This document shows, in pieces, positions 1 through 20,300 of a stretch of 21,775 nt of DNA. How positions within the stretch are numbered: the first letter of the stretch is position 1; each line of letters starts with the position of its first letter. The notes below the pieces were generated by a model, which saw only the letters and a program-made list of their open reading frames with translations, was not told the origin of the DNA and did not search any database. The stretch is from a virus. Position numbers and translations under genes: made by a program. The stretch is taken from positions 1 to 21,775 of IMG/VR virus record IMGVR_UViG_3300046754_000130. The stretch is one strand, 5' to 3'.

Positions 1-284
1 TTTGCCATCTCTACATCTTCTGGACCTTGTGGCTCAAACTTGACTACCTGATCCCCAGAAGTAAATATCTTCATAAGGCTAGGCATAATCCACTCGATTA
101 CATCGGCTACATCTCTTGTGACAATCTGTGAGCGACCTTCTTGCTCATTACCGTACTTCTTACCATAGTAGCGGTCTAATGCATCAGAGCGTTGCTCGGT
201 GAGCTTTCCATCTTTGTACCCTAAAGCAGCATTGATTTCCTGCTCTAGGTGAGCAGATAGCTCCCTCTTTGTCATTTTAGCCAT
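1..284 (-). CDS. Portal protein, N-terminal part (runs off the window's left edge)
   Basis: This is the first 94 codons of a leftward gene. The translation starts MAKMTKREL and continues with a segment containing GRSQIVTRDVADVIEWIMP, LMKIFTSGD and FEPQGPED. That pattern (a Tyr-rich start, then GRSQ-V-RDVAD-EW--PSL--IF-SGD) is the N terminus I recognise from P22-type podovirus portals, the dodecameric ring through which DNA enters the head. The ATG at 284 has an AAAGG ribosome binding site. It follows the 47-aa gene by 3 nt and lies downstream of the terminase genes, the usual terminase-portal order. It contains a GATC site in the GATCAGG context in sense (47-53). The family call rests on remembered motifs, not a search, and the C terminus is not visible. 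Confidence 0.75.
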   Translation of the reverse strand, partial: MAKMTKRELSAHLEQEINAALGYKDGKLTEQRSDALDRYYGKKYGNEQEGRSQIVTRDVADVIEWIMPSLMKIFTSGDQVVKFEPQGPEDVEMA

Positions 285-287
285 AAA

Positions 288-431
288 TTATTTACCTTTG
301 TTTATCGGGTAAGTGGTTTCTTTTTTAGGTGGAGGACTACTGCTTACTGCTTTCATTATTTCTTTTAGGTCCTTGATGTCCTGTGCCATCTCCATCAATT
401 TGTTTTCTAACCACTTTGGGTTCATTGGCAT
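288..431 (-). CDS. Small hypothetical protein between terminase and portal (47 aa)
   Basis: A short gene begins with ATG at 431 and ends at TAA 288-290. It is preceded by a perfect AAGGAG ribosome binding site 6 nt upstream. The protein starts MPMNPKWLENKLMEMAQDIK, is helical and charged with a possible short coiled coil, and ends in a Pro/Lys-rich tail. It fills the gap between the large terminase stop (442) and the portal start (284), so it is probably translated from the packaging mRNA. I do not recognise a family. Small helical proteins at this spot in other phages can be packaging or head accessory factors, but that is only an inference from position. Confidence 0.72.
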   Translation of the reverse strand: MPMNPKWLENKLMEMAQDIKDLKEIMKAVSSSPPPKKETTYPINKGK

Positions 432-441
432 ATACTTCTCC

Positions 442-1731
442 TTATACTATCCAACTTAAATCAGTCTCAGGGAGTTCCCTTCCCCAGACACTATCATTAC
501 CTGTGAACACTACATCTGTTATACACAAGTATCTAAATGCATCGCTAGCGTGTGATGTCCAATCGTGGACTGGTCTTTGTGACCATATCTTTTTCTTGTC
601 ATCATAACTACTTCTATATTGTAGTAATGCTTCTAGTCCTTTCTTAGTATTTTCCTGATCGAACCAGCATTTGTTTAGAAAAGTTCTGGTAGTGTCTATA
701 CCATCCATAACCTTTAACTTAGGTGCTACTTGAAAGTCTATGCCTAGGTCAAATGCTAGGTCGCGTCTTGACTTTCCAGTAGAAAATTCTCTAACTACTA
801 TGTCGTGCGGTGCTATGTGTGCACCATAATGATAACCCTTTCTGTTGAGTACCTCTATATAGTGAGGCAATCCTTCGTTAGAGTTTTCATAATAATCTAT
901 AACGTGTACTGCTTTACCAACAAACTGACAGAACCATATGCTGGTTGCGTCTGAGACCCCAAGGTCCCAGGCTGTTACTACTTGCTTAGACGGGTCATAA
1001 GGGACTTTCCCCACTCGGTCTTCATCATAAGCAGTTTCAATCTCTTTAGCATAATACGCACCTCTAAGTGCAGCAGACCAAGAACACTCGTATTCTTGTT
1101 CAAATTCAGTTTCTGCCATATCTTGCTTCGCAAGTTCCAGCTCTTCATCATCTAATATCCCTGTTTCACTCGCCTTATATAAGAATCTGGCCCATCCCTT
1201 CTTCTCTGGGGCAGAGTGGTATAAATCATAAAATTCGTTCTTTCCTTTAGGTGTACCAATAAATATGGCATAACCTTTTCTGTCAGATAGTGCCGGCCTT
1301 ATCACCTCAGAGAACATCTTAGGGTTCATCTGAGCGTACTCATCTAGCACGACCCCGTCTAAATAAATTCCACGAAGCGTGTCGTAATTGTCAGCCCCGT
1401 ATAACTGTATCCTGGCTCCCATAAAGTCGGCCCTAAGTTCGGCCTCATTAAACTTTACTTCTGGAAACACACCGCACAATCTCTTTAATTCATCCCAGGC
1501 AACTGTCTTAGCCTGTTTAAATAGCGGTGCTATGTATGCATATCGTGGTTGTCTTTTACCAGCTTGTATGTCTTCTACAGAACTCTTTATGAGCTGGTTT
1601 ATAGCAAACACAGTCTTACCAAATCGCCTATGACATACAACTACATTAAATCTATCTAGATTAGTATGTAAATGTTTTTGTAACTCCCTAGGTGTATAGG
1701 GTATTACAATAGATTTTCTCTCCTCTTGCAT
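442..1731 (-). CDS. terL: Terminase large subunit (packaging ATPase and nuclease)
   Basis: This is the motor that pumps DNA through the portal and cuts the concatemer. The 429-aa length is normal for the family. The ATPase domain has a Walker A variant HRRFGKT (residues 34-40), a Walker B VVLDEYAQ (D130, E131) and a coupling motif IFIGTPKGK (157-164). The nuclease domain has VTAWDLGVSDAT with D256, a second acidic site around PHD310 and HASDAFRYL with D397, matching the three-acid RNase H-like site of terminase nucleases. It starts 5 nt after the small terminase stop, so the two are probably translationally coupled, and the portal lies downstream. It contains the second CCTGATC site (654-660), where the sense strand reads GATCAGG and encodes Asp-Gln. 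Confidence 0.95.
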   Translation of the reverse strand: MQEERKSIVIPYTPRELQKHLHTNLDRFNVVVCHRRFGKTVFAINQLIKSSVEDIQAGKRQPRYAYIAPLFKQAKTVAWDELKRLCGVFPEVKFNEAELRADFMGARIQLYGADNYDTLRGIYLDGVVLDEYAQMNPKMFSEVIRPALSDRKGYAIFIGTPKGKNEFYDLYHSAPEKKGWARFLYKASETGILDDEELELAKQDMAETEFEQEYECSWSAALRGAYYAKEIETAYDEDRVGKVPYDPSKQVVTAWDLGVSDATSIWFCQFVGKAVHVIDYYENSNEGLPHYIEVLNRKGYHYGAHIAPHDIVVREFSTGKSRRDLAFDLGIDFQVAPKLKVMDGIDTTRTFLNKCWFDQENTKKGLEALLQYRSSYDDKKKIWSQRPVHDWTSHASDAFRYLCITDVVFTGNDSVWGRELPETDLSWIV

Positions 1732-1736
1732 AGATG

Positions 1737-2324: not shown

Positions 2325-2467
2325 ATCTAAGTATTATACCTTAAAATAATATTGTATTAGTTTATTCCTAGAATATTCTAAATGATGTTGTATTTAACTA
2401 CGACTATGACATACTGCTTTAGTACGTTCTAGGTTTATATAAGTGTTTTGCTATAAAGATACACAAT

Positions 2468-2496
2468 ATTATATAGTATAAATCACCAAAAGTCAA
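2468..2496 (-). promoter_or_regulatory. Sigma-70 type promoter for the terminase-portal operon
   Basis: Read on the minus strand, TTGACT (2496-2491) is followed after exactly 17 nt by a perfect TATAAT (2473-2468). Transcription would start near 2461 and leave a 5' untranslated leader of about 137 nt before the small terminase. It is one of the best promoter matches in the window and looks like a host-polymerase promoter. Confidence 0.8.
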
Positions 2497-3593: not shown

Positions 3594-3705
3594 CGCCTAT
3601 TGAAAATTATCTTGCTCCCTGGTGGCTGCCTGATCCTAGAAGCCGAGCCCCATAAATACCTCTATTTTTAATCTTTATTGCTTACCCCTTCCTATCCCCT
3701 TCCTA

Positions 3706-3814: not shown

Positions 3815-4141
3815 ATGAATAGAAAACAAACTTTTAGAGTCTTAAACAGACGCACCAAAATCAAATCAATTATCAATGAGAATGGCGGTAAGTTTTTCAC
3901 CGTCAAATTTCATAAAGTTGATGGTTCAATTCGGAAAATGAATTGCAGAATCGGTGTTAAAAAATGGTTAAAAGGTGGTGAATTATCGTATCGACCAGAG
4001 GATAAGCCCAATTTACGGGTTGTATTTGATGTTCAAGCGAATGACTACCGAACAATCAATTTAGATAAAGTTTTTTACATCAAGGCGGGTGGTAAACGTG
4101 CTGATGTGTTTTTAACAGAACAACTAATGGAGGGTGTTTAA
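3815..4141 (+). CDS. Hypothetical small basic phage protein (108 aa)
   Basis: The ATG at 3815 follows an AAGGGA ribosome binding site. The protein is basic and appears to be mainly beta-strand (TVKFHKVDGSIRKMNCRIGV, then RVVFDVQANDYRTINLDKVF). This alternation of short strands recalls small DNA- or RNA-binding folds such as SH3-like barrels, but I cannot assign a family. It is the first gene after the promoter at 3706-3734 and is followed by a 43-aa membrane peptide 1 nt after its stop. The pair probably forms a short operon ending at the hairpin at 4286-4310. Confidence 0.82.
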   Translation: MNRKQTFRVLNRRTKIKSIINENGGKFFTVKFHKVDGSIRKMNCRIGVKKWLKGGELSYRPEDKPNLRVVFDVQANDYRTINLDKVFYIKAGGKRADVFLTEQLMEGV

Positions 4142-4274: not shown

Positions 4275-4343
4275 TTAGAAAAACTAAGGGCTGCCTGATC
4301 GGTAGCCTTTACTCTTTTTAACTAGGAAGGAAACAATATGGAT
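4272..4343 (+). repeat. Duplicated intergenic module, copy A
   Basis: This stretch runs from a stop codon TAG to the next gene's ATGGAT. Apart from its hairpin core it is nearly identical to copy B at 5280-5359. Both contain AAAAACTAAGGG, then a hairpin, then CCTTTACTCTTT, an AT pair and TAACTAGGAAGGA, and both end at ATGGATA. Copy A's core is the CCTGATC-containing hairpin. Confidence 0.8.
4286..4310 (+). terminator. Terminator-like hairpin with a TGATC loop
   Basis: AAGGGCTGCC (4286-4295) pairs with GGTAGCCTTT (4301-4310), using two G-U pairs, around the loop TGATC. A broken T-rich tract follows (ACTCTTTTT). It could be a weak terminator or an RNA processing site. The loop and stem contain one of the CCTGATC motifs (4294-4300). 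Confidence 0.6.
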
Positions 4344-4994
4344 ATACAAAACAATTTATTGTTAGTGCCATTCAAAACGCTGAAGGCAGCCAAAGATTAT
4401 GTCGAGGGATTTTCAGACCCAAAGAAAATGCCAGGATGGAGTTATGGATTGCCTATAGATATGTGCAAAACTGGGATGATACTTAAAAAGATACCTAATT
4501 CTGTATGCTCTATATGTTATGCGGGTAAGGGATTTTATACGGTGTACCCCGAAGTAGTAAGAGCACAATTCAGACGTCTTAATAGTATTGATAAGCCACA
4601 GTGGGTTGAAGCAATGATATTTGTAATGACTCACGCTAAAGCAATACTAAGGGATAAAGTTTTTAGATGGCACGATGCTGGTGATATACAAAGTGTTGAG
4701 CATTTGGATAAGATTGTGCAGATTGCAGAAGCTACTCCTGATATTCAATACTGGCTGCCAACTAAAGAGAGTAACTGGGTGCAGAATTACGATAAGCCTA
4801 TCCCTAAAAATCTAGTGATCAGGCTGAGTGGTAGTTTTGTAGATGGTAAACCACCAAAGTATGCACACACTAGCACAGTCGTTACTAACGAGGATGATGC
4901 AACTTGCAGAGCCTTTGAAAACAACAACGAGTGTGGTGAATGTAGACAATGCTGGGATAGTAGTGTAAAAAATATAAGTTACTTTAAACATTAA
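4338..4994 (+). CDS. GP88-like cysteine-rich phage protein (218 aa)
   Basis: The ATG at 4338 has an AGGAAGG ribosome binding site. The N-terminal half contains MCKTG (C43), then SVCSICYAGKGFY (C57, C60), then RWHDAGDIQSVEHLDKI (residues 110-126) and YWLPTKESNW. The C terminus has a second cluster, CRAFENNNECGECRQCW (C190, C199, C202, C205). This order of Cys-x2-Cys-Tyr-Ala, a WHD-GD motif and a terminal Cys cluster fits the phage 'gene product 88' family of unknown activity. The cysteines suggest bound Zn or Fe-S clusters, but the CxxxCxxC signature of radical SAM enzymes is absent. It lies between the two duplicated intergenic modules, next to the methyltransferase, and contains a GATCAGG site (4817-4823). 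Confidence 0.7.
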   Translation: MDIQNNLLLVPFKTLKAAKDYVEGFSDPKKMPGWSYGLPIDMCKTGMILKKIPNSVCSICYAGKGFYTVYPEVVRAQFRRLNSIDKPQWVEAMIFVMTHAKAILRDKVFRWHDAGDIQSVEHLDKIVQIAEATPDIQYWLPTKESNWVQNYDKPIPKNLVIRLSGSFVDGKPPKYAHTSTVVTNEDDATCRAFENNNECGECRQCWDSSVKNISYFKH

Positions 4995-5282: not shown

Positions 5283-5359
5283 TTGTAAAAACTAAGGGAT
5301 ATTCGGAATAGTTCCGAGTATCCTTTACTCTTTATAACTAGGAAGGAGTAAGTATGGAT
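5280..5359 (+). repeat. Duplicated intergenic module, copy B
   Basis: Copy B runs from the TAG of the 92-aa gene to the ATGGAT start of the methyltransferase gene. Its outer arms match copy A (4272-4343) almost base for base, but its core is a variant of the 19-nt palindrome family (TCGGAATAGTTCCGA, 5303-5317) instead of CCTGATC. Its ribosome binding site GGAAGGAG is slightly stronger than that of copy A. Confidence 0.8.
5294..5326 (+). terminator. Long terminator-like hairpin carrying a variant palindrome
   Basis: AAGGGATATTCGGAA (5294-5308) pairs with TTCCGAGTATCCTTT (5312-5326) along 15 positions with two G-U pairs and a TAG loop. The T-tract after it is broken (ACTCTTTATAA), so it may be a partial terminator or a processing hairpin and not a full stop. 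It precedes the methyltransferase gene and could lower its expression. Confidence 0.65.
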
Positions 5360-6361
5360 AAAGATAACAATCTAGGCATTAACGTGCTAAGTCTGTTTGA
5401 TGGTTCGAGCTGCGGTCAAGTAGCCCTTGAACGATCAGGGATTAAGGTCAACAAATACTTTGCATCTGAGGTAGACCCTTGGGCCGAAAAGATTACGCTC
5501 AAGAATTACCCCGATACTGTATGTGTTGGTGATGTTAATTTTGTAAGCGGGATGTTGCTACCAGACATAGACTTAGTTCTTGCGGGTTCACCTTGTCAAG
5601 GATTTAGTTTTGCGGGTAAGCAATTAGCTTTTGATGACCCTAGGTCAGCACTATTCTTTGAGTTTCTCAGAGTCCTGGAGGAGTGTCGCAGATACAATCC
5701 TAATGTTAAATTCTTATTAGAAAATGTAAGGATGAAGCAAGAGTATCAAGACATCATCAGCAAGTATCTAGGTGTAGAACCAGTAGCGATAAACTCGTCA
5801 CTTGTATCAGCACAAAACAGATACCGTTTGTACTGGGCTAACTGGGATATAACTCAGCCCGATGACAAAGGTATAGTCTTGAAGGATATACTTGTTGAGG
5901 GATACGGTGATAGTGTAGCTGACCAAGGCACAACGGTTAAGCAGACAAATGTGGATAAGGCTGCTTGTCTATTGGCTAGAGATTACAAGGGATTTGGCAA
6001 CCAAGCTATGACTGGTGTCAGAACTTGTGAACTCAGAGAGTATGACAAGGATGAGGAATGTCACCACGTTGGCACTGCACTAGACATTAATGGACACGAC
6101 ATACTCAAGCGTGTATATTCGGATACGGGTAAGAGTCCAACTCTGAATACTATGGGTGGCGGTAATCGTGAGCCTAAAGTATTGACTAGTGTGGATAAAG
6201 GAACGTATCGCCCACTGTTACCATTAGAGATGGAGCGATTACAAACACTGCCCGATAACTATACGGATGGTGTAAGCAATACCCAACGCAAGAAGATGTT
6301 GGGCAACGGATGGACTGTCGATGTGATAGTCCACATACTAAAACAAGGAGGATTTGCGTGA
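5354..6361 (+). CDS. Orphan C5-cytosine DNA methyltransferase
   Basis: The enzyme would transfer a methyl group from S-adenosylmethionine to carbon 5 of cytosine in DNA. The 335-aa protein shows the motifs in order: NVLSLFDGSSCGQVAL (10-25, SAM binding), AGSPCQGFSFAGK (77-89, catalytic C81 of PCQ), FLLENV (E123, N124, V125), SAQNRYRLYWANW (152-164), a target-recognition region, and RPLLPLEMERLQTLP plus LGNGWTVDVI near the C terminus. The PCQGFSFAGK wording and FFEFLR spacing recall the phage enzymes related to DNMT3. No restriction enzyme gene lies nearby, so it is an orphan, presumably protecting phage DNA. Its target cannot be read from the sequence. It contains a GATCAGG site (5433-5439). 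The start at 5354 has GGAAGGAG. Confidence 0.93.
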   Translation: MDKDNNLGINVLSLFDGSSCGQVALERSGIKVNKYFASEVDPWAEKITLKNYPDTVCVGDVNFVSGMLLPDIDLVLAGSPCQGFSFAGKQLAFDDPRSALFFEFLRVLEECRRYNPNVKFLLENVRMKQEYQDIISKYLGVEPVAINSSLVSAQNRYRLYWANWDITQPDDKGIVLKDILVEGYGDSVADQGTTVKQTNVDKAACLLARDYKGFGNQAMTGVRTCELREYDKDEECHHVGTALDINGHDILKRVYSDTGKSPTLNTMGGGNREPKVLTSVDKGTYRPLLPLEMERLQTLPDNYTDGVSNTQRKKMLGNGWTVDVIVHILKQGGFA

Positions 6362-6780: not shown

Positions 6781-6993
6781 ATGAGTAAAGAAAGACACAC
6801 GACTGTGGATTGTGTTGAGCACATCTACAAGTTGCAAGATAGAAACGATGAGCTGCGAGATACACTTGTGTTTGTATTAAGAACACTGGATGATAAGTTC
6901 TATCACGAGATACAAAACAAGGATACGCCAATAGGTGAGATCAGGCATCGTGTTGACCAGACGTTAAACTATCCGAGGTATGGTGATGTCTAA
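6781..6993 (+). CDS. Hypothetical small helical protein (70 aa)
   Basis: The ATG at 6781 follows GGGAGGAAT 3 nt after the previous stop. The protein (MSKERHTTVDCVEHIYKLQD...) is charged and helical, with no membrane segment and no known domain. It contains a GATCAGG site at 6939-6945, read as Ile-Arg. It belongs to the packed series of small genes from 6358 to 8239. Confidence 0.72.
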   Translation: MSKERHTTVDCVEHIYKLQDRNDELRDTLVFVLRTLDDKFYHEIQNKDTPIGEIRHRVDQTLNYPRYGDV

Positions 6994-7532: not shown

Positions 7533-7796
7533 ATGATTACATTTGATAGGTATGCATTAGAAGCAGTCATCGATGAAAGAATCGAGGATGCTTTTGATTT
7601 TGGCAGCGTATATGGTAAAGACTTATTTGATAAGGAAGGCAAGGTTGGATACCACAATACTGGATTCCAACCAGGACACCTGATCGATGTACTACAAAGC
7701 CAACAGAATCAGATAACAGAGCTTGAAGATAAGATAACTAATCTGTATAATGAGATTAATAATTTATATAAAACTAAGGAGGAAAGAAGTGAGTGA
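7533..7796 (+). CDS. Hypothetical protein with C-terminal coiled coil (87 aa)
   Basis: The ATG at 7533 follows GGGAGG. The N-terminal two thirds (MITFDRYALEAVIDERIEDA...) is mixed. The C-terminal third (QITELEDKITNLYNEINNLY) has clear heptad spacing of Ile/Leu and is very likely a coiled coil, so the protein probably forms dimers or trimers. No family is recognised. It contains a CCTGATC site at 7679-7685 (Leu-Ile) and overlaps the next gene by 8 nt. Confidence 0.75.
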   Translation: MITFDRYALEAVIDERIEDAFDFGSVYGKDLFDKEGKVGYHNTGFQPGHLIDVLQSQQNQITELEDKITNLYNEINNLYKTKEERSE

Positions 7797-8037
7797 AAAA
7801 ACTTTTGAAGTACACATACAGTCAACTGTATCGTATGACTTTAAGGTGGATATTGAAGCTGATGATATGGATGAAGCAGAAGCGATAGCCGATAGCGAAT
7901 ATTGGAATGACCAATACCACCAGGAAGCAAGGAATTCTCAACTGCACGATGAGTTTGAGATAGTGAGCGTCACTGAGATTGTACCGAAAGATGACAGTCT
8001 TGATGACGATGATGATTACCCACCAAGGGAGGATTAA
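7789..8037 (+). CDS. Hypothetical acidic protein (82 aa)
   Basis: The start is GTG 7789, 6 nt after a perfect AAGGAGG; the in-frame ATG further upstream (7750) has no such site. The protein is strongly acidic (DIEADDMDEAEAIADSEYW and a tail DDSLDDDDDYPPRED). The acidic tail could mimic DNA or bind a basic partner, as several phage inhibitors do, but no family is evident and this remains a guess. It overlaps the 87-aa gene by 8 nt. Confidence 0.72.
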   Translation: MSEKTFEVHIQSTVSYDFKVDIEADDMDEAEAIADSEYWNDQYHQEARNSQLHDEFEIVSVTEIVPKDDSLDDDDDYPPRED

Positions 8038-8038
8038 T

Positions 8039-8239
8039 ATGGGAGTATTTAAACAAATGATGATAGATAAAATGGATGAGCTGCACGGTGGTGACATAGA
8101 AGGACTCACCGAGCAAGACATCATTGATGCTATGGTCGATGAGTATATGCGTTCAGAGGAGTATCACAAGGAGCATATGGATCAGGAAAAAAAGATAGCA
8201 AATAGCTTGACAAGTTCTGATTCATCAGCTAAAATTTAA
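8039..8239 (+). CDS. Hypothetical small acidic protein (66 aa)
   Basis: The start is ATG 8039, placed 6 nt after AAGGGAGG; an in-frame upstream ATG at 7979 lacks a ribosome binding site. The protein (MGVFKQMMIDKMDELHGGDI...) is Met-, Asp- and Glu-rich, helical and unrecognised. Its last 30 nt contain the promoter at 8207-8235 that drives the replication genes, and a GATCAGG site lies at 8180-8186. It is the last gene of the small-gene run. Confidence 0.72.
   Translation: MGVFKQMMIDKMDELHGGDIEGLTEQDIIDAMVDEYMRSEEYHKEHMDQEKKIANSLTSSDSSAKI
8207..8235 (+). promoter_or_regulatory. Near-consensus sigma-70 promoter for the replication genes
   Basis: TTGACA (8207-8212), a 17-nt spacer, and TAAAAT (8230-8235) form a strong promoter inside the 3' end of the 66-aa gene. 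Transcription would start near 8242 and give a leader of about 216 nt before the SSB start at 8458, containing the folded region described next. Confidence 0.78.
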
Positions 8240-8911: not shown

Positions 8912-10561
8912 ATGAGTAAAGGTAACATACTTTTAAGGAAAGAACAGTGTCCGACTTGTGCATCAAGAGGCAAGGACACAAGTAAGGATAACTTGGCTGT
9001 CTATTCTGATGGTCAGACCCACTGTTTTTCTTGCGGTACTCACAAAGGAGGAGGCAAGGAGGCACTAGGTGGGGTAAAAGTAAAAGGGATAGATGATAGC
9101 TGGCTTGCAGACTATCGAGGTGAGTTCTTTAGCTTGCCTGATCGTAAGCTAAGAGCTGAGACACTAGAGAAGTTTAAAGTCAAGGCAGAGAAAGACAAGG
9201 AAGGTAACATAATTAAGCATCACTACCCATTCCACAACAGTAAAGGTGAGATGGTAGGGATGAAGACAAGGATAGTACAGAGCAAGAAGTTCTTTGGCAG
9301 TGGTGACACTGGAAAGACTAACGCTTTGTTTGGTCAGAATTTATTTGCCCCAGGCGGTAAGTACATAACCGTATGTGAGGGTGAGTTAGATGCGATGGCA
9401 GCATATGAGATGCTCGGCTCTAAGTGGTCGTGTGTCAGTGTAACCAACGGTGCTAACTGCATAGATAATATCAAAGCTAATATGCAATACCTCGATTCTT
9501 TCGAGACAGTTGTCATCGCCTTTGATAATGATGAAGCGGGCAGAGATGCAGCGAAGATGATTGCACCTATACTTGGGCCTAACAAATGCAAGATAGTTAC
9601 ATTCGCGAAGCATAAGGATGCTTGTGATTACCTAATCAATAATGATGGTAAAGAATTTATGCACGAGTGGTGGGAAGCAAAGCCATACACCGTGTCTGGT
9701 GTTGCTAGTCTGGAGGATATGCGTAATGCTATGCTCCAATACAGAGACACCGAGCTGATACCTTTGCCCGATTCGTTTGGTAATCTAAATGAGATGATGC
9801 GTGGTGGTGTCGCTCGTGGTGAGCTGGTCTCTATCATTGCACATACATCTATAGGTAAGACAACAATACTCAATGAGTTAATCTACCATTTCTCTACCAA
9901 TACAAATGAGAAGATAGGTTGCTTTATGGTTGAGGATAATATAGATGAGACGATCAGGAAAGTTGTCAGCGTGCACACTGGTGAGAATATGCAGTTGACT
10001 AAGCCTAACGATTTGAATGTTGATAGGATTATGGATGATGCTATTGACATAGGCTTTGCGTCTAAGATACAGCTACACGATGATGGTGGTGGTAGCATAG
10101 ACCTTGAAGAAATGTTTAGTAAGATTAGATATTTTATTAAGGGACTGGGTTGTTCTGTTATACTGGTTGACCCACTCCATACAGCTATTAAGAATTTATC
10201 TAATGAGAACATCGAGGAAGTAATGGATAGATTCATCAAGTTATGTAAAGAGACCAAGGCCACTGTGATACTGAGCACACATACAAGGAAGCCCGATGAT
10301 GGCAGCCACCCACATAAGATTAGTGAGTATGATGTTAAAGGTAGTGGTGCTATACCACAAGCGTGCCACACCAATATACTATTCTCAAGGGACAAGCTGG
10401 CCGAGGATGACTACGAGAGAAATGCAACCCGCATTCGTGTGCCCAAGATGAGAAGAACTGGTCAGACTGGTGAGGCTGGATGGGCATACTTCAATGGCAA
10501 GACTGGAAGATTAGAGAAGGGGCACGCACCACACACTGGAGATGATGATGCGGACTTTTAG
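8912..10561 (+). CDS. DNA primase-helicase, T7 gp4-like
   Basis: This fused enzyme unwinds the fork and makes RNA primers. From ATG 8912 (GGGAGGAG upstream) it has 549 aa, close to T7 gp4 (566 aa). The N terminus has a zinc ribbon with C13-x2-C16 and C38-x2-C41. The TOPRIM primase core has ITVCEGELDAMAAYEML (E156) and VVIAFDNDEAGRDAA (D205, D207). The RecA-like helicase domain has Walker A AHTSIGKT (310-317, an Ala start as in DnaB), Walker B CSVILVDPLH, and VILSTHTRKP followed by an arginine-rich KMRRTGQTGEAGWAYF. The upstream in-frame ATG at 8855 is rejected because it lies before the terminator. Its end overlaps the polymerase start by 20 nt. It contains sites at 9137-9143 and 9952-9958 of the GATC motif. 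Confidence 0.96.
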   Translation: MSKGNILLRKEQCPTCASRGKDTSKDNLAVYSDGQTHCFSCGTHKGGGKEALGGVKVKGIDDSWLADYRGEFFSLPDRKLRAETLEKFKVKAEKDKEGNIIKHHYPFHNSKGEMVGMKTRIVQSKKFFGSGDTGKTNALFGQNLFAPGGKYITVCEGELDAMAAYEMLGSKWSCVSVTNGANCIDNIKANMQYLDSFETVVIAFDNDEAGRDAAKMIAPILGPNKCKIVTFAKHKDACDYLINNDGKEFMHEWWEAKPYTVSGVASLEDMRNAMLQYRDTELIPLPDSFGNLNEMMRGGVARGELVSIIAHTSIGKTTILNELIYHFSTNTNEKIGCFMVEDNIDETIRKVVSVHTGENMQLTKPNDLNVDRIMDDAIDIGFASKIQLHDDGGGSIDLEEMFSKIRYFIKGLGCSVILVDPLHTAIKNLSNENIEEVMDRFIKLCKETKATVILSTHTRKPDDGSHPHKISEYDVKGSGAIPQACHTNILFSRDKLAEDDYERNATRIRVPKMRRTGQTGEAGWAYFNGKTGRLEKGHAPHTGDDDADF

Positions 10562-12272
10562 TTGTGACATAGAAACGGATGGCATAGACGCTACTGTTGT
10601 ATGGTGTGTTGTTGTCCACAATATAGAAACAGACCAAGCTATAACCTTTGCTGGTGACTGCTTGAATCTATTTAAACCTTGGCTTGAGTCAGAGGTAGAC
10701 TGCCTGATCTTTCATAATGGAATAGCATTTGATGTTCCAGTGTTAAAGAGATTGCTTGACATAGATTTTAGTGGCATCCAGATAGAGGACACGATGGTGA
10801 TGAGCCAGTTATACAAACCTAGGCTAGACGGTGGTCATTCACTTGCAGCCTGGGGAGATAGGCTTGGGTTTGAGAAGGGAGACCACAGTGACTGGTCCAA
10901 GATGTCAGATGAGATGTTGGAGTATTGCATTAGAGATACCAAGGTTACTACTAAGGTATACAAGTATCTGCTGTCCAGTGACTTGAGCCAGGATGCTAAA
11001 GACTTGGAGTATGAAACCAAGAAACATTGCTCACTGCAAGAGAGAACTGGATGGTTCTTTGATATTAAAGGTGCTATAGATTTATTAGTTGACATCAATG
11101 ATGACTTGAGACTTGCAGAGGAGGAGGTACATAAGACTTTTGTACCACTACCAGTGTGGCAGAGCAAGACACCAGTCAAGAATAGATTTACCAAGGGAGG
11201 ACAGAGAACTAAGCACTATCAAACAGAGGTAGACTTGCAGTGTCATACTAATGATGATGGTGACTATGGATACTGGACTTATCCAGAACTAAATCTGGGC
11301 AGTAGACAGCAAGTAGGCAGACACCTTATGCACTATGGATGGAAGCCTTCTGTATTTACTGAGACTGGACTACCAAAGGTTGATGAGTCAACACTCAAAG
11401 ATGTGGACATACCCGAAGCTAAGATTATAGCTAGGTATCTTATGCTGCAGAAAAGGCAGAGCCAAGTTAGTAGTTGGGTTGATGAGTACAACTACGATAC
11501 TAGAAGAATACACAGCAGAGTCCACACTATGGGCACTGTCACACACCGTATGTCTAGCAGTAACCCTAACTTACAGCAAGTAACTGCAAGCAACAAGGAG
11601 TATGGTGAGCGGATGCGTGGCTTGTTTACTGTTCCAGATGACAAGGTAATTGTTGGAGCTGATTTATCTGGACTTGAGCTTAGATGTTTAGCACATTATA
11701 TGAAAGACCCAGGGTATACTGAAGAGATATTAAGTGGTGACATACACACAGCTAACCAAAAGGCTGCGGGTCTGAGCACCAGAGATGAGTCAAAGCGTTT
11801 CATCTATGCCTACCTATATGGTGGCGGTGATGAGTTGATAGGGAAGATATGTGGTGGTGGTATGAAGTTAGGCAGAAAGATTAAACAGCAGTTCTTATCT
11901 AACACCCCAGCGTTGGCTGTGCTTAGAAAGAAGATAGAGCACGCGTCAAAGAAGGGCTGGATCAGGACACTTGATGGTCGTAGAGTCTATGTTCGTAGCC
12001 CACACTCAGCACTTAACTTCTTATTACAAAGTGCTGGCTCTATCATAGCTAAGAGAGCTTGGGTTATCTTCCATTCATTAGCACAGCAGTTTGATTACAA
12101 ACAGCTGGGTGTGATACACGATGAGATACAGATAGAGTGTGACCCTATGGATGCAGAGGTTATTGGCAAGCTAGTTGTCCAGGCTATGGAAGAGACAACA
12201 GAATACTACAAACTAAACTGTCCAATTACTGGCGAGTACAAGGTTGGAAAGAGCTGGAATGAAACACACTAA
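10542..12272 (+). CDS. Family A DNA polymerase with proofreading exonuclease
   Basis: This replicative polymerase of 576 aa resembles T7 gp5. The 3'-5' exonuclease has DIETDG (D9, E11), FHNGIAFDVPVLKRL (D64) and EYCIRDTKVT (D132). The polymerase core has motif A VGADLSGLELR (D374), motif B RDESKRFIYAYLYGGG (R414, K418, Y422) and motif C VIHDEIQIE (H526-D527-E528). Y422 is the position equivalent to E. coli F762 and T7 Y526; tyrosine there is associated with low dideoxynucleotide discrimination. ATG codons at 10542, 10545 and 10548 are all possible; GGAG at 10538-10541 gives the best spacing to 10548. It overlaps primase-helicase, so synthesis is coupled. Copy 3 of the 19-nt palindrome begins 1 nt after its stop. 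Confidence 0.96.
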   Translation: MMMRTFSCDIETDGIDATVVWCVVVHNIETDQAITFAGDCLNLFKPWLESEVDCLIFHNGIAFDVPVLKRLLDIDFSGIQIEDTMVMSQLYKPRLDGGHSLAAWGDRLGFEKGDHSDWSKMSDEMLEYCIRDTKVTTKVYKYLLSSDLSQDAKDLEYETKKHCSLQERTGWFFDIKGAIDLLVDINDDLRLAEEEVHKTFVPLPVWQSKTPVKNRFTKGGQRTKHYQTEVDLQCHTNDDGDYGYWTYPELNLGSRQQVGRHLMHYGWKPSVFTETGLPKVDESTLKDVDIPEAKIIARYLMLQKRQSQVSSWVDEYNYDTRRIHSRVHTMGTVTHRMSSSNPNLQQVTASNKEYGERMRGLFTVPDDKVIVGADLSGLELRCLAHYMKDPGYTEEILSGDIHTANQKAAGLSTRDESKRFIYAYLYGGGDELIGKICGGGMKLGRKIKQQFLSNTPALAVLRKKIEHASKKGWIRTLDGRRVYVRSPHSALNFLLQSAGSIIAKRAWVIFHSLAQQFDYKQLGVIHDEIQIECDPMDAEVIGKLVVQAMEETTEYYKLNCPITGEYKVGKSWNETH

Positions 12273-12319: not shown

Positions 12320-13126
12320 ATGAAGTCTATAGATACAGTAGTACAAGACGTATATGATTTGATGCAGTCAAAGAAATATGCTGGAGACTTAAGCTCGATA
12401 GCTATGCAAGCTGGTCGAGAGGTAGAGGAGGCAATCAAAGAAGCCTTCTCACCAAGAGAAGACAATCGCGGTTTGCGGATGTCAGCCCTAGGCAGATGTG
12501 AAAGGGCACAGTGGTACAACTACCACGGTTACAAACAAGAAGAGATAAGCGGTGAGGTTTACCTTACCTTCTTGCAAGGTCACATACTAGAAGCAGTCCT
12601 GATCGCTTTGCTTAAGCTGTCTGGACACACAGTAGAAGACCAGCAGAAGAAGCATACCTTGGAAGGTGTCAACGGTAGCCAGGATTGTACAATTGATGGT
12701 GAGCTAGTGGATATTAAGACAGCAAGTGCTTGGTCCTGGGACAATAAGTTTCAAGAGACTGGGCTCACTGATGATACCTTTGGCTACATCAAACAGCTAT
12801 CTGCCTACGGTAAAGCAGACAAGAGAAAGAAAGGATACTTCCTAGCTTTCAATAAGAACAAGTCAACACTTAAGCTGTGTGAACAACCATTGGAACAAGA
12901 CATAGATACATTTGTTGTTGACTTAAAAGCCAAGATGGAATCAGACACACCACCTATGCGGTTAGCTAACGCTACAACTTGGAACAAAGCCAAGACAGAA
13001 GAGAAGCTATGTATGACGTGTGCATTCTGTGGGTTCAAGGAAGATTGCTTTGGTAGTCTGGAAGCAAGACCTATTCCATCTGGTAAGATAACTAACTATT
13101 ATGTTACTAGTGGAGCTGACTTTTGA
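12320..13126 (+). CDS. Cas4/RecB-like PD-(D/E)XK exonuclease with a Cys cluster
   Basis: A probable 5'-3' or single-strand exonuclease for replication and recombination, 268 aa. The core runs GRCERAQWYN (C60), GHILEAVLIAL (E91), then TIDGELVDIKTAS (D126, D131-x-K133), the PD-(D/E)XK signature. The C terminus has CMTCAFCGFKEDCFG (C231, C234, C237, C243). One cysteine before and several after the nuclease core match the Fe-S arrangement of Cas4 and AddB, so a 4Fe-4S cluster is likely. It occupies the place next to polymerase where T7 keeps its gp6 exonuclease. The ATG at 12320 has GAGAGGAG upstream. A CCTGATC site lies at 12598-12604 (Leu-Ile). Confidence 0.87.
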   Translation: MKSIDTVVQDVYDLMQSKKYAGDLSSIAMQAGREVEEAIKEAFSPREDNRGLRMSALGRCERAQWYNYHGYKQEEISGEVYLTFLQGHILEAVLIALLKLSGHTVEDQQKKHTLEGVNGSQDCTIDGELVDIKTASAWSWDNKFQETGLTDDTFGYIKQLSAYGKADKRKKGYFLAFNKNKSTLKLCEQPLEQDIDTFVVDLKAKMESDTPPMRLANATTWNKAKTEEKLCMTCAFCGFKEDCFGSLEARPIPSGKITNYYVTSGADF

Positions 13127-13502: not shown

Positions 13503-15460
13503 ATACACTACCAAATGATTACCAAAACTTTATAGCACTAAGCAGATATGCAAGGTGGCTGCCTGAAAATAATAGGCGAGAGACGTGGAAAGAAACTGTA
13601 GCTAGGTACTTTGACTTTATGGAAGAGCACCTAAAAGAAAATACTGAGGGCGAGCTAACCCCTAAGACTAGGAAACTTCTTGAAGAAGCTGTGCTTAACC
13701 TAGATGTTATGCCTAGTATGAGAGCACTGATGACTGCTGGTAAGGCATTGAAAGATAACAACATAGCTGGATACAACTGTGCTTATCTTAGTGTTGACCA
13801 CCCTAAAGCATTTGATGAATGCTTGTATGTGCTTATGCACGGTACTGGTGTAGGGTTTAGCGTAGAGAGACAGCATACCAACAAGTTACCAGAAGTACCA
13901 GAAGAAATGATTGATGTTGATGACATTGTAGTAGTGCAAGACAGCAAGGAAGGATGGCAGTCTGCATTCAGAAAACTAATTAACTATTTGTATAACGGTG
14001 AGATGCCTAAGTGGGACTTCTCTAGGGTAAGACCTAAAGGTGCCAGGCTATCTACGTTTGGTGGCAGAGCTAGTGGACCAGAGCCACTACTAGATTTATT
14101 TAACTTTGCTACTAATCTATTTAAAGATGCAGTAGGTCGTAAGCTAACCAGCTATGAGTGCCATCGTATGATGTGTAAGATAGCAGAGGTAGTTGTAGTG
14201 GGTGGTGTTAGACGTAGTGCCCTGATCTCACTATCTAATCTAACTGATGAGCGTATGCGTAATGCTAAGTCTGGTCAGTGGTGGTCTGATACACCAGAGA
14301 TGGCACTAAGTAACAACAGTGTGTGCTACACAGAGAAGCCAGACATAGGAATCTTTATGAAAGAATGGCTGTCGCTGTATGAGTCTAAGTCTGGTGAGCG
14401 TGGTATCTTTAATAGAGAAGCAGCCAAGAAACAAGTAGCCTCTATTGGTAGACGTGATGTTGAGCACGACTTTGGATGCAATCCTTGTAGTGAAATCATC
14501 CTAAGAGATGGACAGTTCTGTAATCTAACTGAGGTAGTGGTGAGAGCAGAGGACAAACAAGAGGACATTTTAAGAAAGGTAAGGCTAGCTACCATACTAG
14601 GTACGTTCCAAGCGTCACTGACAAATATCAAACGATTAAGGCCTAAATGGATACACAATACAGAAGAAGAATCTCTCTTGGGAGTCTCATTAACTGGTAT
14701 AATGGACAACTCTTTTATTAATGGAAGTGCAAGCAGAGGACACCACGGTAAAAAGTCTTTGCCTGACTTCTTGATTGAACTCAAAAAGCAGACAGTAATT
14801 ACTAACAAGAAATGGTCTGCTGCATTAGGCATTAACCAGGCTACTGCAACCACAGCAATTAAACCTAGTGGTACAGTCAGCCAGTTAGTTGACAGTGCTA
14901 GTGGCATACACACTAGACACAACGACTATTACTTTAGAAGAGTAAGAGCAGATGCCAAAGACCCAATAGCACAACTTATGGAAGATCAGGGCATCCCTTG
15001 TGAGGCTGATGTTATGAAACCTAATAGTGTTAAGGTCTTTACATTCCCTATGAAAGCACCCAAAGGTGCAGTAACTAGGAACGAGAGAAGTGCTATCGAA
15101 CAGCTAGAACTGTGGCTTACATATCAAAGGTACTATTGTGAGCACAAGCCTAGTGTAACCATTAGTGTTAGAGAACACGAGTGGATGGAAGTAGGTGCGT
15201 GGGTGTATAAACATTTCGATGAGGTCAGTGGTGTTAGTTTCCTACCACACTCAGACCACACATACCAACAAGCACCTTATGAAGATTGTACTAAAGAGCA
15301 GTACACAGAGCTGGCTAAGAAAATGCCAAGGTCTGTAGACTGGGACTTGATTAGTAAGTATGAATTAACAGACTCAACAGTGGGTACTAAGACACTAGCC
15401 TGTACTGGTAGTGTATGTGAATTAGTAGACTTAGTTGAGGAAGAGAGAGATGTAGAATGA
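13499..15460 (+). CDS. nrdJ: Adenosylcobalamin-dependent (class II) ribonucleotide reductase, monomeric
   Basis: It reduces ribonucleoside triphosphates to deoxynucleotides for phage DNA synthesis and needs vitamin B12 as radical source. The 653-aa single chain fits the monomeric Lactobacillus leichmannii type. Visible sites are GYNCAYLS (C94), RPKGARLSTFGGRASGPEP (178-196), VGGVRRSALISLSN, NPCSEIIL (N328, thiyl C330, E332), GQFCNLTEV (C341, partner of C94) and AIKPSGTVSQLVDSASGIH (residues 457-475 approximately). The C-terminal CTGSVC (C635, C640) is the shuttle cysteine pair. The spacing C330-C341 equals C408-C419 of the Lactobacillus enzyme. The start is GTG 13499. Motif sites lie at 14221-14227 and 14984-14990. 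No thioredoxin is seen in this window. Confidence 0.95.
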   Translation: MNTLPNDYQNFIALSRYARWLPENNRRETWKETVARYFDFMEEHLKENTEGELTPKTRKLLEEAVLNLDVMPSMRALMTAGKALKDNNIAGYNCAYLSVDHPKAFDECLYVLMHGTGVGFSVERQHTNKLPEVPEEMIDVDDIVVVQDSKEGWQSAFRKLINYLYNGEMPKWDFSRVRPKGARLSTFGGRASGPEPLLDLFNFATNLFKDAVGRKLTSYECHRMMCKIAEVVVVGGVRRSALISLSNLTDERMRNAKSGQWWSDTPEMALSNNSVCYTEKPDIGIFMKEWLSLYESKSGERGIFNREAAKKQVASIGRRDVEHDFGCNPCSEIILRDGQFCNLTEVVVRAEDKQEDILRKVRLATILGTFQASLTNIKRLRPKWIHNTEEESLLGVSLTGIMDNSFINGSASRGHHGKKSLPDFLIELKKQTVITNKKWSAALGINQATATTAIKPSGTVSQLVDSASGIHTRHNDYYFRRVRADAKDPIAQLMEDQGIPCEADVMKPNSVKVFTFPMKAPKGAVTRNERSAIEQLELWLTYQRYYCEHKPSVTISVREHEWMEVGAWVYKHFDEVSGVSFLPHSDHTYQQAPYEDCTKEQYTELAKKMPRSVDWDLISKYELTDSTVGTKTLACTGSVCELVDLVEEERDVE

Positions 15461-16240: not shown

Positions 16241-16635
16241 TAAGCAAGGGTATCTTGCCTATGCCTACATATTCTAAGGGCAGAGGAGACAAGAAGAAAA
16301 CAAACTTGCTTAGTCTTAATGTCTTCATACACTTACATCCTTTTGCCAAAGGCAAGTGCAAGGATGATTACTATGAAGTAGTCAAAGAGTTTGTAAAGAC
16401 CCTGCCTAAGTACAAGAAGATAACACCTTCATACACACTGTACTTCAAGAACAAAAGAAAAAAAGATTTAGACAACTACACGTTTCCTATGCACAAGTTT
16501 CTTATGGATGCATTAGTTAAAGGTGGAGTAATAAAAGATGATGATTATGATTATGTTGGTGAAATCAATACTAAGTTTGGTGGCATAGAAGATGACAACT
16601 ATGTTGTTGTTGAGATAAAAGGAGAAGAACTATGA
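16237..16635 (+). CDS. rusA: RusA-like Holliday junction resolvase
   Basis: A 132-aa protein whose central part reads KNKRKKDLDNYTFPMHKFLM and then DALVKGGVIKDDDYDYVGEI. The DLDN motif (D77, D79), D91 and the DDD cluster (101-103) correspond to the RusA catalytic aspartates that cut four-way junctions in a dimer. It would resolve recombination or packaging intermediates, a job done by endonuclease I in T7. The start ATG 16237 overlaps the upstream stop, and its own end overlaps the next start by 4 nt (ATGA). Confidence 0.88.
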   Translation: MISKGILPMPTYSKGRGDKKKTNLLSLNVFIHLHPFAKGKCKDDYYEVVKEFVKTLPKYKKITPSYTLYFKNKRKKDLDNYTFPMHKFLMDALVKGGVIKDDDYDYVGEINTKFGGIEDDNYVVVEIKGEEL

Positions 16636-17015
16636 CTCAAGAAGAATTGCAGTGGATAGCTGTTGATAAGCTAGGCACATCAATTACAGCAACTACAGAT
16701 GAGTTCTGTACATTTGATGGGTATAGTGATGAGTATGTAATTGAGTTTAAGTGCAGAAGAAAGCACTACGACACACAACTAATAGAACACAAGAAATATA
16801 AAGCCAACCTAGATCAGGCTGACGAAAGCGGAAAGGAATTTTTATACATAATATCTACACCAGAGGGTGAGTATGTATTTAATATAAGCAAGCTAAGAGA
16901 AAAAGATTATGACTTTGGCTGGGAAGATAGACGTATGCCATCAAAGACTGACTTCGGTGGACAGCAATACATAAACAAAAGAGTAGGGTATATAAATGTA
17001 AGTCTAACTAGCTAG
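16632..17015 (+). CDS. Putative PD-(D/E)XK nuclease (127 aa)
   Basis: The protein begins MTQEELQWIAVDKLGTSITA. It has an acidic residue at D29 (FDGYSDEYV) followed by VIEFKCRRKHYDT with E38-x-K40, the spacing of a minimal PD-(D/E)XK nuclease core. The rest (EFLYIISTPEGEYVFNISKL) is compatible with the beta sheet of that fold. It ends the plus-strand operon and overlaps the RusA gene by 4 nt. It could be a second junction- or end-processing nuclease. The assignment rests on a short motif and context, so I am only moderately sure. A GATCAGG site lies at 16812-16818. Confidence 0.6.
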   Translation: MTQEELQWIAVDKLGTSITATTDEFCTFDGYSDEYVIEFKCRRKHYDTQLIEHKKYKANLDQADESGKEFLYIISTPEGEYVFNISKLREKDYDFGWEDRRMPSKTDFGGQQYINKRVGYINVSLTS

Positions 17016-17363
17016 TTGGTCCAAGAAAGATTTTCTGCTGAAGTCTTTACTCATTTCAAACGCTCTTCTATTTTTTTCTATCTCTTCATCTAGCTTGGCT
17101 CTTCTTTCAGAAGCAGATATTACACCAGCTTTTTGTTGCTCTCTAAGTCTTCTAAGCATTTTTTCTGTAACTGCATCACCTTTTCTTGTAGCAATTGAAT
17201 CACCATATGCAATTGGCATATTCCTAACTTGAGATTCTTGTTTAGAAAATTGCCTAGATATGAGTTGATTTATTTTCATATCTAATGCTGGGTCATTAGC
17301 AACCTCTTTTACTTTTTCATTAAATTCATTGTATCCAGGTACTATGTTAGTTCCACAAGCCAT
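17004..17363 (-). CDS. Hypothetical helical protein (119 aa), end of the right virion operon
   Basis: It starts at ATG 17363, overlapping the stop of the 1095-aa gene (TAATG), and its TAG lies within the end of the convergent plus-strand gene. The protein has a short start (MACGTNIVPGYNEF) and a long charged helical part (LRRLREQQKAGVISASERRA) likely to form a coiled coil. No domain is recognised. Small helical proteins beside a large internal virion protein are often structural, and this one may be too, but only the neighbourhood suggests it. Confidence 0.78.
   Translation of the reverse strand: MACGTNIVPGYNEFNEKVKEVANDPALDMKINQLISRQFSKQESQVRNMPIAYGDSIATRKGDAVTEKMLRRLREQQKAGVISASERRAKLDEEIEKNRRAFEMSKDFSRKSFLDQLAS
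17006..17017. repeat. 12-bp perfect palindrome shared by two converging stop codons
   Basis: AACTAGCTAGTT lies where the plus-strand nuclease gene (TAG 17013-17015) and the minus-strand 119-aa gene (TAG at 17006-17004) end tail to tail with a 12-nt overlap. It could form a weak hairpin on either transcript, but no T-tract follows, so it is not a convincing terminator. Confidence 0.5.
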
Positions 17364-20300
17364 TAGTCATCCACTCCAAATAAATTCTGTGCTGGTTTAA
17401 ATCCTACACCAGCAGCACCAAGAGAACCATCAAGGCTCTTAGCAAACCAATCTCCTAGATTGCCAAATACACTGACATCTTCTAAGCCATCTTCATCAGC
17501 AGTCCACACTGGTGTTATTACATCAGCGTATAGAGTATCGATTGCACCTATAGCAGTACCACCTAATGAAGTCACAGCACCATCAGCAAATCTACCAGCA
17601 CCAAGTATCATACCTGGAGCACCAGTAAGTCCCATCCTATCTAAAGTCTCTTTAAATGACGGGTCTTCAAAGTCTTGTCCTTTGATTGCATCCTTAAGCA
17701 TCTCACCTGTGTATACAGCAGCGTAACCAAATGCAATAGCACCTATCACACCAACAGCAGCTCCATAGTCTGGAGTACACTGCTTTGGGTTCAGCTTTCT
17801 AAGTAGTCTCTTGACTACTGTATTACCAAACACAACTGGGAATGTCTTGAGCTGTGCAATGATAGCCATCCTAGGGTCTGACATCCATAATGGTTTGTTA
17901 CTAGCTCTCGGGTGTACCACAACATCATCAACTACCTTCTGCATCCAAGGTATAAGTAAGTCTCTTACAGTAACATCAAGCTCTCTTACATCTTCCTTTT
18001 TCTTTTTCTTCTTGTTAGCTGGTGATACTTGTCTTGTTTCTCTCTTGACTACTGTATCTAGAACGTCATCTCTTGTTATGTCTATCTTAACTTTTCCATC
18101 AGCACCTCTAAATGCATTAGCGATCAGGCTGAAATCTTGTCTAGTCAATCCATTTTCTTTTAGTTCGTTGTCAAGTCTACGCTGGTCTATGTCTTTTAAA
18201 TCTCCAGCTATGATGCTGTTAGCCTTGTGGTTTAAGTTAGCCATCCACGCTTGTGCAGCCCAGTTCCTATTGAAGTTAGTAAACTGCGTAAGCATACCAC
18301 CCAGTGGTGTTCTAAAGTAAATGCTAAGTACCTTGTTGGTATCTGTTGCAAATATTTGGTCTAGCCTTTCATTAACCCTTGGGTCTAGGTTAAATCCTAA
18401 TGTAGCCATAGCTGTTGCACTTTCACCAGGCTCTATGTATTTACCAGACATACCCTTTCTTGTACCATCTATTGCATACTTAAATGCTTTAGGTAGTGTA
18501 GCTAGCATATTACCAAAGCCAGCTCTCTCACCTATCCAAGCAAGCTCTGATAGTGACGATAGTGTTGCTAAACCTAAGTGAGTTATAGCACCTACAGTAG
18601 TAGCAACTTTAGACGCGGCCAAAGCATTCGGGTTTGCATCCTTCTTGTATATGTTATGTGATGCATCATACAAGTCGTAGGCTCTGTCTACTTCTTGTTG
18701 TGTAATCTCTCCAGCTCTTTGCAATTTGCCCAGCTCTGATTTTAATTTAGACGCATCCTTACCAAAGATGTTAGCTGATGCAACACGAGTTGCTGCATTC
18801 TGTAAGTAGTTAGTAAGAACCTTCTCTATGTTCTGCTCTCTAAAGTTAAGCCCTTCTTTGTCTGCTAGTGAATCTAAGTTTGACCAGGCCTCACTTCTGG
18901 ACTGCTCAAAAGACCTCTTTGTTTGTCCTTCAAATGCTGGGTCATCTGGTCTGTCTATCCTAACTGATGGGTCATAGCCATTAACAATACCATCAGCAAT
19001 CTCAGCAGCTTCTTTTGTACTAATCTCTTTTACCTTGCCACCTTTACTGGCAACTGCTTGCTTACTGGATTCAACTAAGAGTCTAATGAAATCATCTTTG
19101 TTGGCCTTAACTGCCTCTTTGCTAATTGGGTTAGTCAAGTAATCTTCTACTGCTTGTGACTCAGCTAACAAACCGTTGTCTACCATATCTCTTCTTACAA
19201 GCTCTATGGTTTCTTTGATAGTTTTTATGTCACTCTCTAGCTGTGCTGTGTTGCCTTGAAATTCTTTAGGCAAGTTTGCCTTTGGTCTCTTTGGGTCTAT
19301 TCTATGCAACAAGTATGCACTCATCTCTGGACTAATGTCCTTGCCTATCTGACCAATAAACATCTTCTTGTCTGAGTATCTATTAACAATGTTGATTACA
19401 TTCTTAAGATACTGACCACTCTTTCTTTCTTTCAAGTTAAAGAAGTTATCTCTTACACCTTGCTCACCAGTTCCAGTCTCTGTTGCTTGGAACATTTGTA
19501 GTATTCTATTAGCACCTTGATATGCAGCACCAGATTGAGCTCTATTTCTTAGCTTAAGCAGTGGGTCTGTTCCTTTAAATGCTATAGCACTTGTTAGTTG
19601 TTGTGCTGACTCTTTAACATCAACACCAGTAAGACTTTTAAGTGCCTTGTTTCCTTTGTCTGCAAGTAACTTAAACTCTGACTCATAGCCCTTGCCTTCT
19701 GGTAGTTTAATTTGTCCCTTGACTGCATCTAAAGTGTCTGGTGCATTAGCTAGCAAGTCTCTGTTGTAATTTTTAACCAACCTTCTTGCAGTAGATAAGT
19801 CTCTGTTTTGCTCTCTGCCCACACCAACTGCTGCTGGAGTAGACGCGGCACCAGCTATAGGACCAGCAATAACAGCTTCTTCCATCAGCTCTTGCAGTCC
19901 TTCAGATGTTTGTAATTTTCCAGGGTCTTGGCTTGTTGCTATCTGCAGGCCTTTTTGCCCAGCCTCAGTAGCCATCTCTGTGCCTACAATACCAGCACCA
20001 AACTTACCACCTTTGTATATTTGTTTAGCTAGCTTGTCTCTATTTGTATTGACAAGTTTAACTAAAGAATCTTTTGTTGCATTAACACCACCATTACCAA
20101 GAGCTTTAGTTAGCAACTTAGATGTTTCAGTTGCACCTCTCCTTGGTGCGATCAGGTCTAGATAAGTTACACCCATACCTACAGTTGCAGCCCAGCTTTT
20201 CTCTGTTGGTGTCAGCTCTCTGCCAGCAGCAGCCTCGTGCTCTGCAAGTGTGTCTGCAAAGTTCATATTGTATGTAGTGGCCGCAGTGCCCCAGTTAATA

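Follow-up and report, generated by a model that had tools for sequence, protein, structure and literature searches.

The heptamer CCTGATC, sole context of GATC in a phage contig, is linked to a phage-borne C5-cytosine methyltransferase

HIP1, a repeated element of cyanobacteria familiar for decades, still has no agreed function. HIP1 (GCGATCGC) and the alternate HIPs are short GATC-containing motifs that occur about once per kilobase, are linked to an orphan cytosine methyltransferase and have no settled function, the question being treated as still open, and Elhai (2015) proposed for HIP1 a ratchet working through mismatch repair, with saturation at about 1000 nt (PMC4390886). They are the closest known analogue of the motif described here, the 7-mer CCTGATC in the IMG/VR virus contig IMGVR_UViG_3300046754_000130, of which all 21,775 bases were analysed and which is called the window in the following. 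Unlike HIP1, CCTGATC is phage-borne and asymmetric, GATC outside the motif is nearly all removed, and there are near-identical sister phages lacking both the motif and the C5-cytosine DNA methyltransferase that goes with it. CCTGATC shares with HIPs the over-representation and the density of about one per kilobase and is not a palindrome, and for this last reason we do not count it among the HIPs despite its density and gene link.

Two further systems invite comparison. The loss of the four-base palindromes GATC, CATG and GCGC resembles restriction-site avoidance in phages as described in the part of PMC4687349 considered here, and differs from the usual case in that the loss follows phage genes and not the host strain, wherever this could be checked, and in that one context is enriched rather than lost. 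Like CCTGATC, the uptake sequences of Haemophilus and Neisseria are asymmetric, dense, present on both strands and reportedly evenly spaced, but they belong to bacterial chromosomes, are driven by uptake and, as far as the portion of PMC1939737 used here describes them, show neither a methyltransferase link nor the loss of an embedded word. Our literature search found no description of CCTGATC in phages, no phage C5 methyltransferase with this target, no enrichment of such a target in a phage's own genome and no link of the small phage proteins phrog_13596 and nuc127, treated below, to a cut site. Phage methyltransferases act against restriction, and the multispecific phage C5 methyltransferases (SPR, phi3T, rho11s) are phage-borne with exchangeable recognition-type modules, like the enzyme of class B, the lineage of the window. 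The BREX motif of Salmonella, GATCAG, matches GATCAGG, the motif read on the other strand, in six of its seven letters; a phage would be expected to avoid BREX targets, whereas CCTGATC is enriched.

A preliminary description of the window had stated that all its GATC sites lie within this 7-mer, and our recount agrees, as 19/19 GATC sites are inside CCTGATC or GATCAGG, with 9 copies on the plus and 10 on the minus strand. The reported depletion of GATC and enrichment of the 7-mer also hold, with 63 (first-order Markov) or 84 (maximal order) GATC and 2.1 copies of CCTGATC on both strands (first-order Markov) expected against 19 observed of each. Under a null model keeping amino acids and codon usage constant (21 open reading frames, 18,252 nt, 400 shuffles), the coding sequence holds 15 GATC against a shuffle mean of 57.0 and a minimum of 41, and 15 CCTGATC against a mean of 1.7 and a maximum of 7. 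GATC in the window is far below both kinds of null, as in restriction-site avoidance. None of the one-base variants of CCTGATC that retain GATC is present in the window, and of those that retain CCTGA there is just a single CCTGATA. CTAG, rightly called common before, is near expectation (104 vs 116), CATG (0 vs 84-91) and GCGC (0 vs 15-21) are absent, and CCGG is found once (13-15 expected).

The best 80 of 215 loci from a terminase search were taken as relatives, and 79 of them (L060 omitted) were classified together with the window by word content. Class A has CATG and no GATC; class B, to which the window belongs and which forms one lineage within a marine family of podovirus-like phages, has no CATG and its GATC nearly always as CCTGATC; class C has neither word, and class D is without CATG, its GATC being ordinary. 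Mixed or unclassed content is seen in a few short loci, and L083 was scored B by the script despite having no GATC. In hand-picked pools of loci that are partly kin to one another, 306 GATC were counted in 25 class B loci versus 3 in 23 class A loci (348,561 class A bases); 280 of the 306 are CCTGATC versus 0 in class A, with 35 expected in class B; the 7-mer is enriched 8-9-fold. Of the 26 remaining class B GATC 17 are flanked by CCG, CGC or CTC. Other words differ between the pools of class B and A as well: CATG 1 vs 872, CGCG 275 vs 2, CCAGG 473 vs 38 and CCGG 46 vs 350. In the terminase tree the word classes are interleaved, and at the DNA level the window's terminase is 92-93% identical to its closest class B and 91-93% to its closest class A relatives. 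According to the preliminary description, relatives with GATC in ordinary contexts would speak against the pattern. The answer is mixed: such relatives do exist in class D (163 GATC vs ~170 expected), which has no methyltransferase, but most of the traced class D copies of CCTGATC stand at places shared with patterned phages (5/7 in L220, 2/3 in L076), in keeping with inheritance from an ancestor of class B.

Two observations on other words may be added. CCGG is 2 to 5 times over expectation in class A and C loci such as L176, L178 and L238, and a search for three methyltransferase families recognised none in loci of this type. The six-base palindromes AAGCTT, GATATC, AGTACT, GGTACC and CAGCTG are strongly depleted in pooled class B.

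The link between the CCTGATC pattern and a phage C5 methyltransferase is strict throughout the material examined. The window encodes this enzyme and, upstream of it, a small protein of similar distribution:

5354..6361, plus strand: C5-cytosine DNA methyltransferase, 335 aa (PF00145, E 5e-35)
3815..4141, plus strand: WYL_2-like (SH3 barrel) protein, 108 aa (PF10902, E 4e-6)

The PF00145 match scores 121.9 bits with a cut-off of 22, and SPCQ and ENV motifs are present in the translation. By profile, the enzyme was found in 8/8 class B records versus 0/12 others, and by sequence search in 15/15 class B genomes, several of which had themselves been found via the methyltransferase, versus 0/14 of classes A, C and D. 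Among the 17 terminase-only class B loci it is present in 10/10 that cover its position, the other 7 ending earlier. In the 22 loci whose enzyme is at least 72% identical, 263/293 GATC are CCTGATC, versus only 34/1726 in 58 loci with a more distant enzyme; reading enzyme targets from the word content of these 58 loci was given up, no excess of CCTGATC being seen there. The N6/N4 methyltransferase families PF01555 and PF02086 were each found in 0/20 records. The WYL_2-like protein is nearly as specific for class B as the enzyme (14/15 vs 0/14 others) and is a possible partner of the methyltransferase.

The copies of the motif in the window, from the recount, are the following:

47..53, plus strand: CCTGATC copy 1
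654..660, plus strand: copy 2, in the terminase gene (motif at this place in 13/80 aligned terminases: 10 class B, 2 class D, 1 unclassed)
3629..3635, plus strand: copy 3
4294..4300, plus strand: copy 4
4817..4823, minus strand: copy 5
5433..5439, minus strand: copy 6, within the methyltransferase gene
6939..6945, minus strand: copy 7
7679..7685, plus strand: copy 8
8180..8186, minus strand: copy 9
9137..9143, plus strand: copy 10, primase-helicase (14/14 class B homologues, 0/7 class A)
9952..9958, minus strand: copy 11, primase-helicase (9/12 class B homologues)
10703..10709, plus strand: copy 12, DNA polymerase (10/11 class B homologues)
11960..11966, minus strand: copy 13, DNA polymerase (5/12 class B homologues)
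12598..12604, plus strand: copy 14, exonuclease gene (5/11 class B homologues)
14221..14227, plus strand: copy 15, ribonucleotide reductase (10/10 class B homologues)
14984..14990, minus strand: copy 16, ribonucleotide reductase (8/9 class B homologues)
16812..16818, minus strand: copy 17, within the gene of the CATG-linked nuclease-like protein nuc127
18122..18128, minus strand: copy 18
20150..20156, minus strand: copy 19

Across 15 class B genomes the mean gap between copies is 704-1804 bases, giving a density near one per kilobase, and in 8/15 genomes the copies are spread more evenly than random placement would give (P < 0.02). The smallest gap in the window is at least 501 bases, which was matched by 0/5000 random placements. 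The copies occupy four codon phases on both strands, and as the codon-fixed null is exceeded as well, selection acts on the DNA, in agreement with the preliminary description. The most widely shared places are found in 14/14, 10/10, 10/11 and 8/9 class B homologues, and others in single genomes. The maps of CCTGATC placement that were inspected show no rule of strand or gene orientation. Class B has few of the half-motif words CCTGA, CCTGC and GATC, and the position-4 neighbours CCTAATC, CCTCATC and CCTTATC are about equally common in class B and A; because class B shows no shortage of these neighbours compared with class A, one-base conversion into the motif finds no support. Simple restriction avoidance was rejected as the whole story, as it would leave a genome free of GATC, like those of class A, and would not produce an 8-9-fold excess. 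That it fails for the enrichment had been argued before and is borne out by the sister phages, which have almost no GATC at all; the excess of CCTGATC needs positive selection or drive.

Two small proteins that are found beside RusA bear on the lost words. The one encoded in the window is nuc127:

16632..17015, plus strand: nuc127, 127 aa, predicted PD-(D/E)XK fold (fold model, invariant residues)

Its residues D29, E38 and K40 are invariant across 25 homologues, and the AF2 model built from 25 sequences reaches a pLDDT of 91.8, an earlier one from 9 sequences having been poor (pLDDT 47). The best fold match of the model is the archaeal Hjc (Z 11.3, rmsd 2.2, 99 residues aligned), a match that could also point to a junction resolvase. 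Wherever the place is covered nuc127 adjoins RusA (class B 6/6, class C 1/1, class D 4/4); the remaining class B contigs examined for this, and one of class C, end short of the place. Counting a word as purged when it is at or below 5% of expectation, CATG is purged in 74/75 loci with a nuc127 homologue versus 4/58 background loci, and in a second, otherwise unrelated nuc127 clade CATG was found 3 times versus 3016 expected. GATC (65/75) and AGCT (63/75) are mostly gone from the nuc127 loci too, so that CATG is not singled out within the second clade; it is singled out by the contrast of class A with classes B, C and D. As judged from genome content, nuc127 would account for the purge of CATG and not for the CCTGATC pattern. 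As the agent of GATC loss it was ruled out, class D having nuc127 together with ordinary GATC. The second clade (L242-L303, L240 and L241) is almost without CATG, GATC, AGCT and CCGG; of its members L276 and L277 also lack TTAA, and L281 lacks GTAC and TCGA.

In the 7 class A records having the RusA neighbourhood, a different protein of 131 aa, here called A-nuc, takes the place of nuc127. It corresponds to phrog_13596, which is annotated as function unknown, and is located as follows in two loci:

L172, 7751-8143, minus strand: A-nuc (phrog_13596)
L215, 13135-13506, plus strand: A-nuc (phrog_13596)

Judging by its conserved E, K and D residues, A-nuc may belong to the same PD-(D/E)XK superfamily as nuc127; it had neither a Pfam match nor a match to a solved structure. 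In the closest 80 of at least 570 relatives, which are not independent loci, GATC was found 2 times versus 1757 expected and is purged in 79/80, and CATG and AGCT are purged in 0/80. These loci are also often without CCWGG (48/80) and CGCG (78/80), so A-nuc need not be the sole agent. Named records with A-nuc number 43, and GATC is 0 in 8/8 cultured or fosmid phages counted (stretches); in pelagiphages, HMO-2011 and CRP-143 A-nuc goes along with total GATC loss. Phages of one host strain can be compared directly (GATC observed/expected): on HTCC1062 HTVC011P has 0/71 and HTVC025P 0/68 versus 80/52 in HTVC010P, on HTCC7211 HTVC115P has 0/70 and HTVC134P 0/87 versus 65/57 in HTVC106P, and on FZCC0023 CRP-143 has 0/85 versus 197/148 in CRP-9, with HTVC010P, HTVC106P and CRP-9 being the phages without A-nuc. 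Since the GATC state differs between phages of one strain, the host GATC-binding protein considered in the preliminary description is not needed. Exceptions to the rule are Venkman and FPSV-S1, which are without GATC and without a phrog_13596 match, and L118, which has a weak A-nuc match (35% over 74 aa) and ordinary GATC (18 vs 18). That the losses of GATC and CATG track two small phage proteins is thus a correlation, the GATC part of which is supported by the same-host comparisons.

A second word bears on the activity of the methyltransferase. CCWGG is lost in A-nuc phages without the enzyme (observed/expected: HMO-2011 0/47, HTVC011P 0/19, HTVC115P 0/18, HTVC025P 0/17, CRP-143 1/48) and normal where a related enzyme is present (HTVC134P 23/27, AP013541 25/26, HTVC309P 25/26), as it is in class B. 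This fits a protecting enzyme, and the CCWGG content suggests a Dcm-like protecting activity common to these methyltransferases. The third module of the enzyme was also considered as the source of the CGCG or GCGC content and dismissed, as there is no correspondence. As a separate observation, CCCGC is found at about 3 times expectation (25 vs 8) and GGCC is raised in HTVC134P and HTVC309P (L215, L217), and in AP013541, which has a related methyltransferase, neither is raised.

The explanation that we tentatively favor, and that may well be right although we stop short of calling it probable, is that CCTGATC serves class B as a self-mark, iterated under positive selection and reliant on the C5 methyltransferase which the phage itself encodes. 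It would begin with the near-complete removal of GATC seen in these genomes, presumably because nucleases circulating among these phages cut GATC, as the correlation of genes and motifs suggests: small nuclease-like phage proteins each track one lost four-base palindrome (phrog_13596 GATC, nuc127 CATG). GATC inside CCTGATC would then be retained in methyltransferase phages, and only there, as is seen in the correlation, as the enzyme would methylate the GATC cytosine in the CCTGATC context and leave the site uncut. The observed enrichment to about 1 copy/kb might be favored because the copies serve as loading sites or self-marks, by which the enzyme would locate and mark phage DNA fast and prefer it over DNA of the host or of rivals. 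The strict link to the methyltransferase, the CCWGG contents and the even spacing in 8/15 genomes speak for this explanation; the methylation of CCTGATC and the cause of its excess are inferred. Of the roles proposed in the preliminary description, a modification or self-mark is made a likely one by the strict link to the methyltransferase, and nothing pointing to packaging or uptake turned up, neither of which was directly tested. In a wider joint reading, which we regard as possible but considerably uncertain, marine phages would carry small restriction-like nucleases that have no methyltransferase to match, and would be immune through genomes emptied of the targets (GATC for phrog_13596, CATG for nuc127), and the CCTGATC mark of the class B methyltransferase would readmit one protected form of GATC, evenly spread as a private self-label against rival GATC nucleases.

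Several results weigh against the self-mark explanation. CCTGATC is missing altogether from HTVC134P, HTVC309P and AP013541, whose methyltransferase is 58% related, so any CCTGATC activity would have to be peculiar to the branch of class B, and an asymmetric 7-base target is unusual in a C5 enzyme. The contents of CGCG and GCGC differ among class B genomes in a way not matched to the module content of the enzyme. A phrog_13596 homologue was sought in class B and not found. The records searched for class C and for the second nuc127 clade, two genomes in the latter case, held none either, and most GATC is gone from both groups. The spacing is not even in 7/15 genomes. The amino-acid evidence in favor of the explanation, a departure from the class A consensus at 12/19 coding sites versus 28% of background windows (P 0.0017), is skewed to difference, since a consensus is set against sites from single genomes, and this bias could not be removed. 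Within class B the motif columns are no better conserved than other columns, so the copies turn over.

Could the host alone have shaped these genomes? Host restriction enzymes would then strip GATC and CATG, and a methyltransferase of host or phage would happen to spare CCTGATC. Loss of short palindromes is the usual phage response to restriction-modification (PMC4687349), and several six-base palindromes are scarce in class B as well. We nevertheless consider this account unlikely, as phages of the same strain differ completely in GATC on HTCC1062, HTCC7211 and FZCC0023, where the state follows the phage gene, and as the enrichment stays unexplained. An artefact of sequencing or assembly is refuted for practical purposes: the pattern agrees among related contigs from many metagenomes, the motif recurs at matching alignment positions from contig to contig and the reading frames are intact.

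Two other accounts take the enrichment itself as their starting point. In a ratchet like that proposed for HIP1, a methylated cytosine would steer mismatch repair or nicking so that mutations creating CCTGATC are kept up to about 1/1000 bases, the copies being a by-product without function. The density (~1 per 1.1 kb), the embedded GATC and the methyltransferase link are all as in HIP1, Elhai's model predicts saturation near one site/1000 nt (PMC4390886), and the even spacing in 8/15 genomes points the same way. Such a ratchet should however consume the position-4 neighbours, yet these are equally common in class B and A; HIP1 is palindromic, the sections of PMC4390886 considered here do not describe GATC outside HIP1 as removed, and no mismatch-repair gene was noticed in the window, though none was sought. 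We therefore judge it distinctly unlikely. Very improbable, in our opinion, is a signal for recombination, replication or packaging (Chi-like or priming-site-like) that is read by phage or host, with the methyltransferase linked by descent only and GATC loss being separate. An asymmetric 7-mer on both strands with roughly even spacing would suit it, as would the strong positional conservation at the few replication-gene sites named above. It leaves unexplained why the motif occurs only with the methyltransferase and why GATC survives only there; moreover, the maps show no consistent strand bias, and sister phages with closely similar replication genes manage without CCTGATC. A count of CCTGATC in 289 alphaproteobacterial genomes in search of the host had an unsuitable control, the reversed word, since this includes CTAG, a scarce word in bacterial genomes.

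The class B motif thus offers a phage counterpart of HIP1 in small genomes together with a natural control, namely sister phages with 91-93% identical terminase DNA that are without enzyme and motif, and with this control the reason for iterating a methylated word becomes directly testable. A palindrome loss that follows a phage gene and not the host would alter how site avoidance in phages is read, and the wider pattern offers phrog_13596 a probable function, as far as genome content can indicate one.

The gene content of the window comprises a terminase, the C5 methyltransferase, a primase-helicase, a family A polymerase, a class II ribonucleotide reductase and RusA. Among named phages the terminase finds its best matches in pelagiphages (~53%), and the ribonucleotide reductase in phages of Sinorhizobium, SAR116 and roseobacters (~62-64%). 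Positions 7750-8037 of the window show a weak likeness to phage RNA polymerase inhibitors (phrog_1307, PF16857).

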